From: Amycolatopsis tolypomycina
GTDB lineage: Bacteria > Actinomycetota > Actinomycetes > Mycobacteriales > Pseudonocardiaceae
Assembly: GCF_900105945.1 (NCBI RefSeq)
Contig: NZ_FNSO01000004.1
Location: forward strand, 1,922,001 to 1,986,000
Length of the DNA stretch: 64,000 bases
Direction of reading: 5' to 3'
Of this stretch, positions 36,317 through 61,891 are shown one piece after another. Position 1 is the first letter of the stretch. Each line of letters opens with the position of its first letter. Below the pieces are notes generated by a model. It ran no database searches. It had not been told where the DNA came from and saw only the letters and a list, made by a program, of their open reading frames with translations. Position numbers and translations under genes: made by a program.

Positions 36317-36520
36317 TCAGCCGCCCTGGACGACCCCGAGCAGGTCGCCGACCGACAGCGGCGCCCGCCCGCCCGGCACCGCCGGGACCGCCCGGCCCGC
36401 GACGGCACCGCCGTGGGCGAAGAACTGGTCGCAGATCGCCGCGACCGGCTGTTCCGGACGGCCGAGGGCCAGCGGATCCGGCGCGGGCGTGGTGTTCACA
36501 GTGGACTCGACGGTGTTCAT
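36317..36520 (-). CDS. 67-residue peptide ending in Gly-Gly, candidate precursor or signalling peptide
   Basis: Starts at ATG 36520 with GAGGAG five bases upstream and lies only eight bases beyond the ABC permease stop, so it is the third gene of the exporter operon. The sequence has an N-terminal polar part (MNTVESTVNTTPAPDPLALG), one Cys (QPVAAICDQFF), a Gly/Ala/Pro-rich middle, and ends APLSVGDLLGVVQGG directly before the stop. The ending resembles double-glycine leader peptides of bacteriocins and lanthipeptides, yet no core follows the GG. The Pro-Leu ... Cys ... Ser-x-x-Asp-Leu-Leu-x-Val layout recurs in three small proteins at 57.6-58.8 kb. It is not a carrier protein (no GxxS). Function unknown. 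Confidence 0.75.
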   Translation of the reverse strand: MNTVESTVNTTPAPDPLALGRPEQPVAAICDQFFAHGGAVAGRAVPAVPGGRAPLSVGDLLGVVQGG

Positions 36521-36528
36521 GCTTCTCC

Positions 36529-37320
36529 TCAGGGTGTTTTCTCGGAAACGGACCGGAAAACCCGCGAAGCCGCCGTCACGACGACGGCCAGCAGGATCGT
36601 GATCGTCACGCACGCCACCGGCACGGCGTGGACGACGGCGAAGCTGTCGCCGGTGTCCGCCACCGGGTTGCCCCACAGCAGGCGGCAGGCCGTCGACACC
36701 GTGCTCACCGGGCTCCACGACGCGATCGCGTGCAGCCAGCCCGGCAGGCCGTCCGGGGGGACGAAGGCCGTCGACACGAACGAGCCCACCACCAGGACCA
36801 GGCCCGACAGCGAGTTGACCGCCGGGGTGCTGCGGATCCACAGGCCGGCCAGGATGCCCGTCCACGACAGGAGGAACGCCAGTGCCAGCAGCAGGCCGAA
36901 GCCCGCCAGGCCCGCGCCGATCCCGGTGTGGATCCGCCAGCCCAGCAGCCAGCCGACGGCCAGCGCGATGGTCATGCCCACCGCGAGCAGCAGCAGGTCG
37001 CACAGCGACTGCGCGAGCAGCACCGGGGTCCGGCCGATCGGCAGGGAGCGGAACCGGTCGACGAGCCCGCCGCGCAGGTCCTCCGCCACCGCGATCGCGC
37101 TCGTGCCGAAACCGGCCAGCGCCACCTGGGCGCCGACGCCGGCCATGGTGAAGTCGAGGAAGCTCGTGCCGTCCGGCATGGCCATGGACTTGTTGAGCAG
37201 GTAGCCCATCACCACCACCATCGTCACCGGGGTGAGCGTGACGGCGAACAGCTCGCCGGGCGAGCGGCGCAGCCGCAGCAGCCGCCGTCCGGTGAGGGCG
37301 GCGGTCTCGGTGAGGATCAT
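36529..37320 (-). CDS. ABC-2 type exporter permease (DrrB-like)
   Basis: 263 residues from ATG 37320, overlapping the ATPase stop (ATGA). Six hydrophobic helices in the ABC-2 order: [100 protein letters not shown] and the C-terminal [18 protein letters not shown]. The conserved polar loop [21 protein letters not shown] matches daunorubicin-type DrrB. With the adjacent ATPase it should export a hydrophobic metabolite, most simply the NRPS product, and provide self-resistance. Followed by the 67-residue peptide gene. Confidence 0.9.
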
Positions 37321-57639: not shown

Positions 57640-57918
57640 TCACAGCGTGCCGAGCACGTTCAGCAGCTGGTCGGCCGACATGCGGTCGCCGGCGGCCGGG
57701 CCTTCGGCCACCGGGGAGGCGGTCTGGTCGAACCCGTGCCGGAAGACGTGCGCGGCGGCCCGCCACGCGTAGGTGAACGCGGTGACGCCGACGTAGACGG
57801 TGTCGAACTCCGCGGCGCAGGCCAGCGGCAGGACGGCCTCAGGAACTTCGAGCGGCTTCAGCGCTTCGGTGGCACGGGAGAAGTGCGCGGTCGCGGCCGC
57901 TTCGACAACAGTCATCAT
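57640..57918 (-). CDS. small Cys-containing protein of the PL-Cys-LLxV group
   Basis: 92 residues from ATG 57918 (or ATG 57915); GGACG lies 4-5 bases upstream, a weak site. After a short helical N-terminus comes ALKPLEVPEAVLPLACAAEF, then a moderately hydrophobic aromatic segment VYVGVTAFTYAWRAAAHVF, a polar linker and the ending DRMSADQLLNVLGTL. The Lys/Glu-Pro-Leu, the Ala-Cys followed by a hydrophobic stretch, and the Ser-x-x-x-Leu-Leu-x-Val ending are shared with the two divergent neighbours and with the peptide at 36317-36520. No known family recognised. It is divergent from the two related genes across a region with a large dyad. Confidence 0.7.
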   Translation of the reverse strand: MMTVVEAAATAHFSRATEALKPLEVPEAVLPLACAAEFDTVYVGVTAFTYAWRAAAHVFRHGFDQTASPVAEGPAAGDRMSADQLLNVLGTL

Positions 57919-58023
57919 TTTCGTCCGTTCTCGGTGGGTTCGGCGAGGAATTTCCCCGGCCTCGCCGACCGGGTAAGGTCATGATGTCCGCTGTTCTCCG
58001 GACGGCAACAAAATCGGCGTGTT

Positions 58024-58075
58024 GCGGGTGGAAATCCCCGATTGTTCGGACAATCGCGGAATGTCAACCACCCGC
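58024..58075. promoter_or_regulatory. large nested dyad in divergent small-peptide region
   Basis: Outer arms GCGGGTGG (58024-58031) and CCACCCGC (58068-58075) enclose inner arms CGATTGT (58039-58045) and ACAATCG (58050-58056) around a TCGG loop. As DNA it could be a compound operator for the divergent small-peptide genes; as RNA it would be a long hairpin in the leader of the rightward pair. Confidence 0.6.
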
Positions 58076-58185
58076 AGGTGTCGGTTGCCTGAATCCTCCG
58101 TCAATCGGTGGATGACCCGTTCCCGGCCGGCCGCTTATCGTGACGGAAGCTACGCGGTGCGTGGTACGGGAGCAGAGGAGAAGAG

Positions 58186-58458
58186 ATGGAAGTGATCGAG
58201 GCCATGCAGGACCTGGCGAACCCGGGAGTGGAGCCTCTTTCCTTTGGGGCGCCCGCGGTGGACCCCACCGCCTGCACCTGGGCGATCGCCGCGGCGACCT
58301 TCGCCGGGTTCACCGTGGGGGCGGGCGTGGGGTGGGTCAACTGCCACTACCACGGTTGCGTTCAGCAGGCCGACGACGTCGAAGTCCCGGAGGGAGTGGC
58401 GGGCCTGCCCGTCGCGGAACTGCTCGGCATGCGCAACCAAGCCGCCACCCAGGCCTGA
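58186..58458 (+). CDS. small Cys-rich protein of the PL-Cys-LLxV group
   Basis: 90 residues from ATG 58186, with GAGGAGAAG just upstream. N-terminal MEVIEAMQDLANPGVEPLSF, then VDPTACTWAIAAATFAGFTV and GAGVGWV, a single likely membrane-spanning segment rich in small residues (about 31-50), followed by a polar Cys/His cluster NCHYHGC and an acidic tail ending GLPVAELLGMRNQAATQA. First gene of a pair, 20 bases before the next. It could be a membrane-active peptide, a two-component bacteriocin-like partner or a modified-peptide precursor; no maturation enzyme is visible in the window. Unknown family. Confidence 0.75.
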   Translation: MEVIEAMQDLANPGVEPLSFGAPAVDPTACTWAIAAATFAGFTVGAGVGWVNCHYHGCVQQADDVEVPEGVAGLPVAELLGMRNQAATQA

Positions 58459-58478
58459 CCGAACCGATGGAGGATGAA

Positions 58479-58760
58479 ATGAGCGGGATTTCGACGGCCT
58501 CGTTCCCCGGAACGCTCGAGCCGCTGGAGTACGGCGGCCGCGAGGTCACCATCGCCTGCACCCCCGCGGCGGTCGACCTGGCCGCGGTCGGCCTCGGCGC
58601 GGCCGGCATCGGCTACTTCGCCGCGAAAGCGTTCTACCACAAGCACGTGGGCCACTTCGACGACCGCGAGGACCTCCTCGACAGCGGCGTGGCCCAGGAC
58701 GAGCTGCTGTCCTCGTCGGATTTGCTGTCGGTCCGGGTGAACGAGCTCACCCGCAGCTGA
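58479..58760 (+). CDS. small protein of the PL-Cys-LLxV group, partner gene
   Basis: 93 residues from ATG 58479, with GGAGG about six bases upstream. It opens MSGISTASFPGTLEPLEYGG, then VTIACTPAAVDLAAVGLGAA and GIGYFAAKAF, one hydrophobic helix after the conserved Cys, a His/Lys-rich stretch YHKHVGHFDD and an acidic C-terminal third with SSSDLLSVRVNELTRS. It is co-transcribed with the preceding gene, with which it shares the GlxEPL start, the Ala-Cys and the late Leu-Leu motif. Followed by a strong hairpin terminator. Role unknown; the pairing suggests that the two products act together. Confidence 0.75.
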   Translation: MSGISTASFPGTLEPLEYGGREVTIACTPAAVDLAAVGLGAAGIGYFAAKAFYHKHVGHFDDREDLLDSGVAQDELLSSSDLLSVRVNELTRS

Positions 58761-59846: not shown

Positions 59847-61304
59847 TCAGGCAGGCGAGACGCCTGGTTTGTCCCATGGTGTCGGTATCCGGTGGCCCCG
59901 GTAGCGATAACGCTGAATGGTCATCGTGGCGGGTTGCCAGAGTGCGACACTGTTGTATTCCGGCCACCACCGGTTGTAGTAGCGGCGGATGATCCACCGT
60001 CTGCTGGTGCGGGGGTGTTTGTTCTTCAGCCATTCCCAGACCCGCCACCACAGGTAGTGCTGGAGATGGTGGTAGGCCTTGCTGGAGGAACTGTGCCGGA
60101 AGTACTGGGCCCATCCGCGGGTCATCGTCCCGAGTTGCCGGAACAGTCGGTCCGCGTCCTGATGGGTGATCCGCTTGGTCGCTGCCTTCACCTTCCGTTT
60201 GATGGAAGTCATCGACTTCTTCGACGGATAGGTGTAGATCAGTTTCCGGTCGCTTCCGTATTGAGTGTGCCGCTGGATGCGGAATCCCAGGAAGTCGAAT
60301 CCCTCGTCGATGTGCACGATCTGTGTCTTTTCCGGGGCGAGCCGAAGCCCGATCCGGTCCAGGATCGCACCGATCTCATCCCATAGTTTCTCCGCGTGGT
60401 CTCGGGTTCCGTTGACCAGGACGACGAAGTCGTCGGCATAACGGGTCAGCCGGAATGTTGCGCCGCCGCGTTGGCGATGGCGCGCCCGGGTCCAGGAGTT
60501 CCTGTGGTTCTCCCAGATCTGGTGGAAATAGTCGTCCAGTTCGGAGAGAGTGATGTTGGCCAGCAGCGGCGACAGAATGCCGCCCTGAGGGGTTCCGGAA
60601 TGGGTGTCCCGGCCGGCGCCGTCCTCGCTGAGGATTCCCGCGCGCAGGAACGCCTTGATCAGCTCCAGGATCCGCTTGTCCTTGATCCGTTTCCGCACCA
60701 GCCCGAGCAGGGCGGTGTGGTCGATCTCGTCGAAACAGGCGGCGATGTCGCCCTCGAAGACCCACTCATAGCCCTGCTGGGCATAGTGGCGGATCTCCTC
60801 GACGGCGTCCTGGGCCCGGCGTCTGGGCTGGAAACCATAACTGGAGTCCCGGAACCCGGTCTCGAAGATCGGTTCCAGGACCAGCTTCAGCGAGGCTTGA
60901 ACGACCCGATCGGTCACGGTCGGTATCCCCAGCCGGCGCGTCTTCCCGCCGGTTCTGGGAATGTGCCGTTCCCGGACCGGGAGCGGACGGAACGCCCGAG
61001 CCTTCAGATCAGCCCGGATTTCCTCCAACAACCCGACAACACTCAGCTTCGATTCGGTGATCGAGCGGACAGTCCGCCGATCGACACCCGCGCTGCGTGC
61101 TCCGGTGTTCCCCGACACCCGTTCCCACGCCGTGACGAGGAATGCGGGGTCGGCCACGAGGTTATAGAGATCATCAAACCGGCGGCCGGGATCGGCCGCC
61201 GCCCAACGGTGCAGCTTCGTTTGCATTCCCAGTACCCGCTGCCCTGCGGTGAACGGCACCAACAGCAGATCACCGATGTTCACCGGTGAGGCTTCTTCTG
61301 GCAT
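59847..61304 (-). CDS. ltrA: group II intron reverse transcriptase/maturase
   Basis: 485 residues from ATG 61304 (MPEEASPVNIG). RT blocks 0-7 in order: NTGARSAGVDRRTV, FRPLPVRERHIPRTGGKTRRLGIP, LVLEPIFETGFRDSSYGFQP, VFEGDIAACFDEIDHTALL, HSGTPQGGILSPLLANI, and the catalytic YADDFVVLV near 305. Then comes the maturase X/GIIM domain (DFLGFRIQRH, MTRGWAQYFRHSSSSKAYHHL, WRVWEWLKNKH), ending soon after. A C-terminal HNH endonuclease domain is absent, so mobility would rely on reverse splicing into DNA, often at replication forks. The protein assists splicing of the surrounding intron and reverse transcription during retrohoming. Confidence 0.95.
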   Translation of the reverse strand: MPEEASPVNIGDLLLVPFTAGQRVLGMQTKLHRWAAADPGRRFDDLYNLVADPAFLVTAWERVSGNTGARSAGVDRRTVRSITESKLSVVGLLEEIRADLKARAFRPLPVRERHIPRTGGKTRRLGIPTVTDRVVQASLKLVLEPIFETGFRDSSYGFQPRRRAQDAVEEIRHYAQQGYEWVFEGDIAACFDEIDHTALLGLVRKRIKDKRILELIKAFLRAGILSEDGAGRDTHSGTPQGGILSPLLANITLSELDDYFHQIWENHRNSWTRARHRQRGGATFRLTRYADDFVVLVNGTRDHAEKLWDEIGAILDRIGLRLAPEKTQIVHIDEGFDFLGFRIQRHTQYGSDRKLIYTYPSKKSMTSIKRKVKAATKRITHQDADRLFRQLGTMTRGWAQYFRHSSSSKAYHHLQHYLWWRVWEWLKNKHPRTSRRWIIRRYYNRWWPEYNSVALWQPATMTIQRYRYRGHRIPTPWDKPGVSPA

Positions 61305-61891
61305 TACCTCAACTTCCCTGCTTCGTCTCGCTGTCGCCCTTCCCCATGTGGACGGCTTTCCCGTCCTCGGAGTACTACGGCGACTCCGCCCCATCGCAAG
61401 CCTCTCGGCAGGCAATGCGCCTATCCGTCATCAGACCACCGGCTGTGACCCGTTTATGGAAGGCTTGCGGTGGTTCCCATGTTCACGTGTTCCCGATCGA
61501 CGAGTGAGGCACCCAGCTTTACCCCGGCAGTCCCTGTGAATACGCCACAGACTTTCTCCACAGGCTGCCCGAGAACAATTCCCGGGCGGACGCTACCCCT
61601 ACCACTTGGTTCACGCGCACTGCACTACCGACCCATATCCGCCAGGTTCGAGTCGGCTCCACATAACGAGGCTTCAGACACTGATTCCTATTCGTATACC
61701 TTCTCGTCTCGCTCACCGAGCCCGCACCATCTGGCGATACTGGCACGACTCGACTTTGTCAGGGCCGCTTGCCACCTCAACCTGCCCATTCCCGCAGGTC
61801 AGGCTGCCCTCAGCTTCACCGAACCGCTGTGACGATCCAGCGTCGGAGGTCTTGCACCTCCGATCGGATAAACACGCGCCTCATGGCGCAC

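Follow-up and report, generated by a model that had tools for sequence, protein, structure and literature searches.

Four short open reading frames (ORFs), P1–P4, in a 64,000-nucleotide stretch of the Amycolatopsis tolypomycina genome (G000:C4:1922001-1986000 of 10.36 Mb, hereafter the window) very probably encode precursors of a linaridin-related pathway for ribosomally synthesized and post-translationally modified peptides (RiPPs), in which at least 20 scattered genes would share a single maturation operon. The first-pass annotation had described four ORFs of 92, 90, 93 and 67 residues with three shared motifs, and their positions, lengths and motifs were reproduced:

57640..57918, minus strand: candidate precursor P1, 92 residues, ...LKPLEV...PLACAA...MSADQLL, divergent from P2/P3
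58186..58458, plus strand: candidate precursor P2, 90 residues, ...VEPLSF...PTACTW...LPVAELL
58479..58760, plus strand: candidate precursor P3, 93 residues, ...LEPLEY...IACTPAA...LSSSDLL
36317..36520, minus strand: candidate precursor P4, 67 residues, short divergent member, ...PDPLAL...PVAAICD...LSVGDLL

P2 and P3 are separated by 20 nt. Purine-rich, good ribosome-binding sites precede P2–P4 and a poor one precedes P1, in agreement with the earlier count of three out of four. The ratios of the computed nonsynonymous and synonymous rates (dN/dS) against orthologues from Amycolatopsis sp. MtRt-6 are 0.38, 0.35, 0.24 and 0.16 for P1–P4, respectively; this range indicates purifying selection and, therefore, real genes. 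NCBIfam and Pfam scans of P1–P4 returned nothing credible.

Family of putative precursors in the host genome

Family members were collected by a single-sequence search with P3, followed by gene calling on 132 kb from the window start and by profile searches. Among the weak matches of the P3 search, loci L002, L003 and L006 were inspected; L006 was rejected, as by eye it is antisense to a urease-like ORF. The final profile, A5, has 38 rows, 17 from the host and 21 from relatives (10 near-duplicates among 31 relatives were left out), and the 16 other aligned members share 15–35% identity with P3. A search of the host genome with A5 gave at least 21 matches at E <= 1.4e-5, the next one appearing only at E 0.13 (150 of 328 candidates scored). 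These matches correspond to at least 20 genes, or 21 units, since one gene is double. Fourteen of the 20 genes fall within 90 kb (C4:1958320-2048969) around and beyond the window, and the other six are found at approximately 0.05, 0.06, 3.17 (two genes), 3.53 and 3.63 Mb. The proposed family of four is thus real but much larger. Here and in the other genome searches part of the first-look candidates was scored, and all counts are accordingly lower bounds. The double gene (L031:11174-11707, C4:2046174-2046707) consists of two precursor-like units in tandem, each with the Cys and the tail motif; likewise, two precursor matches share one frame in G333:C12.

The family was compared with chance in several ways. 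A profile of 31 relatives, built only from loci of other genomes that carry the linaridin-type protein LinL, scored P1, P2 and P3 at 37.5, 31.5 and 23.8 bits, whereas their best shuffled versions reached 9.1, 10.6 and 6.0 bits (none of the 500 shuffles per peptide came up to the true score). The relatives had been picked by similarity to the own-genome profile, which makes this test partly non-independent. Among 16 own peptides, 15 beat all of their 500 shuffles, the exception being P4. In a leave-one-out test, which shares some of this selection, all 17 own members tested, including P4, exceeded every one of their 500 shuffles. A test by gene position is free of it: with a profile built from the host genome only, 18 of 30 precursor-like domains detected in 52 LinL loci (864 kb, described below) lie upstream of a LinG gene at a distance of no more than 500 bp. 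No profile match was obtained among 16,387 reversed ORFs from 1.52 Mb even at E <= 10, in contrast to 211 matches at E <= 1e-3 for the true ORFs, a figure that differs from a gene count because the loci overlap one another and contain rows of the profile itself. In a list of 171 small ORFs from the window, P1 and P2 were the only ones to stand out; longer ORFs in that list concealed P3 and P4. Judged by these sequence statistics, P1–P3 are members of one family.

Putative maturation operon in the host and its counterparts elsewhere

The host operon (G000:C4:2029084-2037331) starts approximately 43 kb past the window end and 48 kb from P3. It encodes a pair of M16 peptidases, one with and one without an HxxEH site, LinG, an ATP-binding cassette (ABC) exporter, LinE and a LinL/CypL homologue, and LinL (C4:2036125-2036676) is present in the host genome in one copy. 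In profile comparisons, g77 is CypL-like (hhalign against a CypL-like protein, E 6e-21), while g74 and g76 match the N-terminal and C-terminal halves of a CypH-like protein. The host system therefore has both the linaridin-type LinL and the combination of an HTTM-like protein with an alpha/beta hydrolase (LinG/LinE; fused as LinH in some linaridin systems). Neither a methyltransferase, such as the LinM of linaridin N-terminal dimethylation (the rest of the genome was not searched for one), nor a decarboxylase was found among g71–g78. In Pfam and NCBIfam scans, LinL (approximately 190 residues) falls near DUF5819, with 9 of 11 rows matching at E <= 0.01. LinG, the membrane protein, comes weakly close to HTTM, LMF1 and SdpB; the HTTM match of g74 is sub-threshold (E 0.0069), and 11 of 27 LinG rows match HTTM at E <= 0.01. 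A search by sequence revealed no solved relative of LinG or LinL at E <= 1. Among the fold families compared, the predicted structure of LinG resembles that of vitamin-K gamma-carboxylase (GGCX), a likeness of the model fold only, at 13% identity.

Operons of this kind link the peptides to their putative machinery in other actinobacteria. Precursors were found in at least 12 genomes, including the host, out of 297 scanned from the same taxonomic family (17 candidates scored per genome). Six loci (L083, L085, L086, L087, L088 and L090) share the order peptide, membrane protein of about 290 residues, ABC exporter, alpha/beta hydrolase and the protein of about 190 residues, which carries a WRFFAP.PG motif; the Kutzneria locus L081 has the same order. 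The ABC gene is on the other side of the peptides in L084 and L092, the stretch fetched for L089 contains the peptide and membrane protein only, and the match in L091 is probably due to chance. The relatives' operons often add an M16 peptidase pair. Eleven of the 12 precursor-positive genomes have LinL; the twelfth, G259, owes its place to a match inside a 253-residue ORF, which we take as chance yet counted. At least 11 further LinL-positive genomes of the taxonomic family have no precursor detectable by this profile (11 candidates scored per genome in the LinL scan). Because relatives are found beside machinery homologous to that of linaridins, the description of the family as unrecognised does not hold in its strong form. 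The Amycolatopsis marina operon additionally encodes a pair of flavoproteins resembling acyl-CoA dehydrogenases, and one of the pair is fused to a domain like that of polyketide cyclases (L085:9226-11849); such flavoproteins were also recognized by eye in L086, L087, L088 and L090, and none was seen in the host operon.

A species-wide scan with the approximately 190-residue protein, covering 84,980 species with one genome apiece, gave the 52 loci mentioned above. In L093–L115, a precursor-like domain lies within 500 bp upstream of 17 of the 30 LinG genes. Operons of this type occur in Amycolatopsis vastitatis, Micromonospora endolithica, Actinopolyspora alba and a Cellulomonas metagenome-assembled genome (MAG), with more by feature count. 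In A. vastitatis, a P2 look-alike (L096:6022-6282) lies upstream of an HTTM-like gene and a P3 look-alike is found at L096:12606-12857 (both by eye). Nine loci (L102–L110) have two LinL genes from different branches of the LinL tree; eight of them also have two LinG genes, and several have more than one precursor. A LinL and LinG pair on a long branch was observed outside Actinomycetota, in an Opitutaceae MAG (L117).

The 52 loci also include L118, with a precursor and CypH- and CypL-like genes, and L126, a Streptomyces griseus cluster, which we take, from recognition of their sequences, to be cypemycin-type and grisemycin-type, respectively. These type A linaridins resemble the host system in having homologous LinL (CypL-like) and LinG plus LinE (there fused, CypH-like) and a leader followed by a hydrophobic core. 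They differ in having one precursor seen per cluster, a C-terminal Cys pair and no C-terminal [LM]S..LL..R tail, and their LinL proteins are across a deep split (support 100/99) in a midpoint-rooted tree whose branches are long. No precursor match at E <= 1e-3 was obtained in the loci with cypemycin-type genes (L118 onwards). The window peptides have no C-terminal Cys pair and, with no decarboxylase such as LinD found among g71–g78, fall outside type A; the decarboxylation of the C-terminal Cys in that type is described in passages of PMC9927463.

The multiplicity of precursors extends beyond the host. Kutzneria buriramensis (G126) has one LinL match and, with 150 of 374 candidates scored, at least 22 precursor matches at E <= 1e-3; these include fragments, and 20 of the 22 are on two contigs. 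Within the host genus, at least 8 of 80 genomes possess precursors at E <= 1e-4 (67 candidates scored per genome), with 21, 20, 14 and 4 matches and then 2 in each of four genomes. Kutzneria loci L078 and L080 combine short peptide genes with short fragments that by eye are nonribosomal peptide synthetase (NRPS)-like or ketosynthase-like, which suggests that the region is partly decaying.

Probable cleavage motif, cores and proposed route

The Cys that had been noted 9–12 residues after the PL motif is indeed there, but it falls within a leader-cleavage motif of a known type. According to the passages of PMC9927463 on corynaridin, a type B linaridin, its leader is cut at a PxxxTP hexapeptide. 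The exact hexapeptide occurs at the Cys site in 10 of 21 aligned relatives. In the host genome, its first Pro is kept in 13 of 17 members and the TP in 2 of 17, and the fourth place is occupied by Cys in 14 of 17. Most likely, the Cys belongs to the leader-cleavage site or adjoins it, and is not at the heart of the product. The first Leu of the tail is nearly invariant, being present in 16 of the 17 host rows and in all 21 rows from relatives (37 of 38 aligned precursors); the tail Arg is found in 10 of the 17 host rows and again in all 21 others. Of the earlier suggestion, a genuine peptide family whose C-terminal motif is conserved family-wide is supported, and its members are probably modified and exported; the motif may serve in recognition.

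We propose that the N-terminal half (M..IE...PLE) would bind a LinG/LinE/LinL membrane complex, that the core following the P..[C/A/G]T[P] motif would be modified, and that the M16 pair would cleave at this motif, after which the ABC exporter would carry the product out. The C-terminal [LM]S..(D/E)LL..R motif may be a tag removed later or part of the product, which by analogy might be guessed to be a bacteriocin or a signal. In prochlorosin-type lanthipeptides, many precursors are likewise served in trans by one enzyme, a LanM, which is unrelated to the membrane complex considered here.

By published description, corynaridin resembles the host system in that the HTTM protein is separate from the alpha/beta hydrolase and both are accompanied by LinL and an ABC transporter. 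It also has the PxxxTP cleavage motif (exact in about half of the relatives, altered in the host) and, like g71–g78, lacks methyltransferase and decarboxylase genes. It differs in its core of seven Thr residues, all dehydrated, its single precursor, its short-chain dehydrogenase/reductase gene and the absence of a cluster protease gene (passages of PMC9927463). As outlined in parts of PMC8068269, the class V lanthipeptides lexapeptide and cacaoidin resemble the host system in using M16 peptidases for leader removal, for which an LxmP1/LxmP2 heterodimer has been proposed, and no linaridin dehydratases or cyclases are reported there for the cacaoidin cluster.

The hydrophobic nature of many cores and their scarcity of Thr would also suit unmodified, secreted SDP-like bacteriocins, with the HTTM-like protein and its partners only processing and exporting a hydrophobic helical peptide. 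The precursor structure model (mean pLDDT 52) has a single long helix after the motif, of low confidence and with no interpretable fold, and g74 has a weak NCBIfam match to SdpB (E 0.0013). At 18.4 bits, this match is far under the cut-off of 178.4, P1–P4 have no Sdp match, and no Sec signal was recognized by eye (no dedicated test was made). Taken together, LinL, the hydrolase and the HTTM-like protein correspond to the set found in linaridins, which makes the SDP-like explanation unlikely.

Several observations weigh against a linaridin-related pathway acting on P1–P4. None of the 17 aligned own-genome members, P1–P4 included, contains the exact PxxxTP, and for this reason we file the window peptides as linaridin-related and not as linaridins. 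The cores are poor in Thr after the hexapeptide, with a median of 1 in the 17 own members (range 0–5) and 3 in the 21 relatives; P1 has four Thr, P2 two, and P3 and P4 none. A Thr-rich relative is encoded in Prauserella cavernicola (L104:7897-8160). No LinL, LinG or M16 homologue is encoded in the window, and the host LinG gene has no precursor immediately before it, as even the closest one, g70, ends 4.4 kb away on the upstream side; we infer the in-trans link of scattered precursors to the operon from the single LinL per genome. The trait is dispensable, as no member was found at E <= 1e-4 in 72 of 80 genomes from the genus. Finally, P4 scores 4.4 bits with the 31-relative profile, equalled by 7 of 500 shuffles, and stands apart from chance only in the leave-one-out test with other own-genome members and relatives (20.4 bits, shuffle maximum 8.2, 0 of 500). 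An alignment of 18 P4-type sequences matches the family in hhalign (E 1.4e-7), and P4 is probably a shorter, weaker family member.

In linaridins, several Thr residues are dehydrated to dehydrobutyrine. Since the cores here are poor in Thr, dehydration may not be the main modification. With a median of one core Thr, Calpha chemistry, for example L-to-D epimerization, looks likelier for most members than large-scale Thr dehydration, while P1 and P2 could still be dehydrated. A bolder and rather doubtful possibility is that, in both an Amycolatopsis clade and Kutzneria, the GGCX-fold complex modifies some 20 divergent scattered peptides not through Thr dehydration but through another chemistry, such as multi-site L-to-D epimerization, guided by the leader and the C-terminal tag, to yield a library of D-residue peptides encoded among NRPS and polyketide synthase (PKS) genes; the Thr residues in P1 and P2 slightly lower its odds.

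Genomic setting and implications

P4 follows a pair of transporter genes at a distance of 8 nt, an arrangement with the DrrB-like permease that is the same in MtRt-6 (locus L155):

36529..37320, minus strand: ABC-2 permease (DrrB-like), Pfam PF01061, 8 nt upstream of P4
37317..38252, minus strand: ABC ATPase with DrrA C-terminal domain, PF00005 and PF13732, context of P4

The first-pass annotation had linked the family to this exporter. The link is disfavoured: the ABC exporter of the operons in other genomes is a different one, in which membrane and ATPase domains are fused, and no P4-like ORF was seen beside Kutzneria's DrrAB-like pair. The pair next to P4 probably serves the neighbouring NRPS product. 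The position of P4, together with those of g64 after PKS and ABC genes and g70 after an NRPS gene (PKS and NRPS by eye), would also be expected if these three were accessory proteins of NRPS/PKS lines, resembling RiPP precursors by descent only. We consider this improbable, as their motifs are the same as in the rest of the family and six of the 20 genes are at other chromosomal places, and the Kutzneria pair without a P4-like ORF again argues against it.

Regulatory genes are interspersed with the peptides (window numbering continued past 64000):

64120-65268, 68560-69624, 75534-76691, 77144-78274 and 120931-122079: five similar PucR-type regulators between peptides

Three of the five were scanned, all with HTH_30; g84 adjoins g85, g51/g52 are close to g53–g55, and 5 of the 7 Kutzneria loci examined contain homologues of these regulators. 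The peptides might accordingly be ligands of these regulators, one per local circuit. Such a role is very unlikely, because none of the 32 other loci tested among L083–L115 has a homologue of the five, while LinG, LinE, LinL and the ABC exporter recur there.

Two further features were noted in this part of the genome. A group II intron reverse transcriptase/maturase (59847-61415, minus strand; RVT_1 and GIIM, 59847-60917 scanned) lies approximately 1.1 kb downstream of P3. A PALP enzyme (PF00291) and, by eye, an ornithine-cyclodeaminase-like ORF, at region coordinates 67513-68547 and 106176-107108, resemble the SbnA/SbnB diaminopropionate pair; similar ORFs, by eye, adjoin each other in Kutzneria (L080:392-2357).

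The machinery of this linaridin-related system is of a known kind. It is unusual in that its putative substrates are numerous and scattered, with a cleavage motif altered by Cys, a tail motif and cores poor in Thr. Titles, abstract openings and some passages of the literature found contain no report of scattered linaridin-type precursors or of the tail motif. According to passages of PMC9927463, linaridin clusters are typically located through their LinL, and a survey by Georgiou (2020), as cited there, counted 561 of them, which may already include operons of the sort described here. LinL-based searches could miss distant scattered precursors, and the output of the class may therefore be undercounted. 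If one complex does have a natural library of some 20 substrates, the chemistry of LinG/LinE/LinL could be tested directly. The carboxylase fold predicted for LinG provides a structural handle on enzymes whose mechanism PMC9927463 calls unclear.
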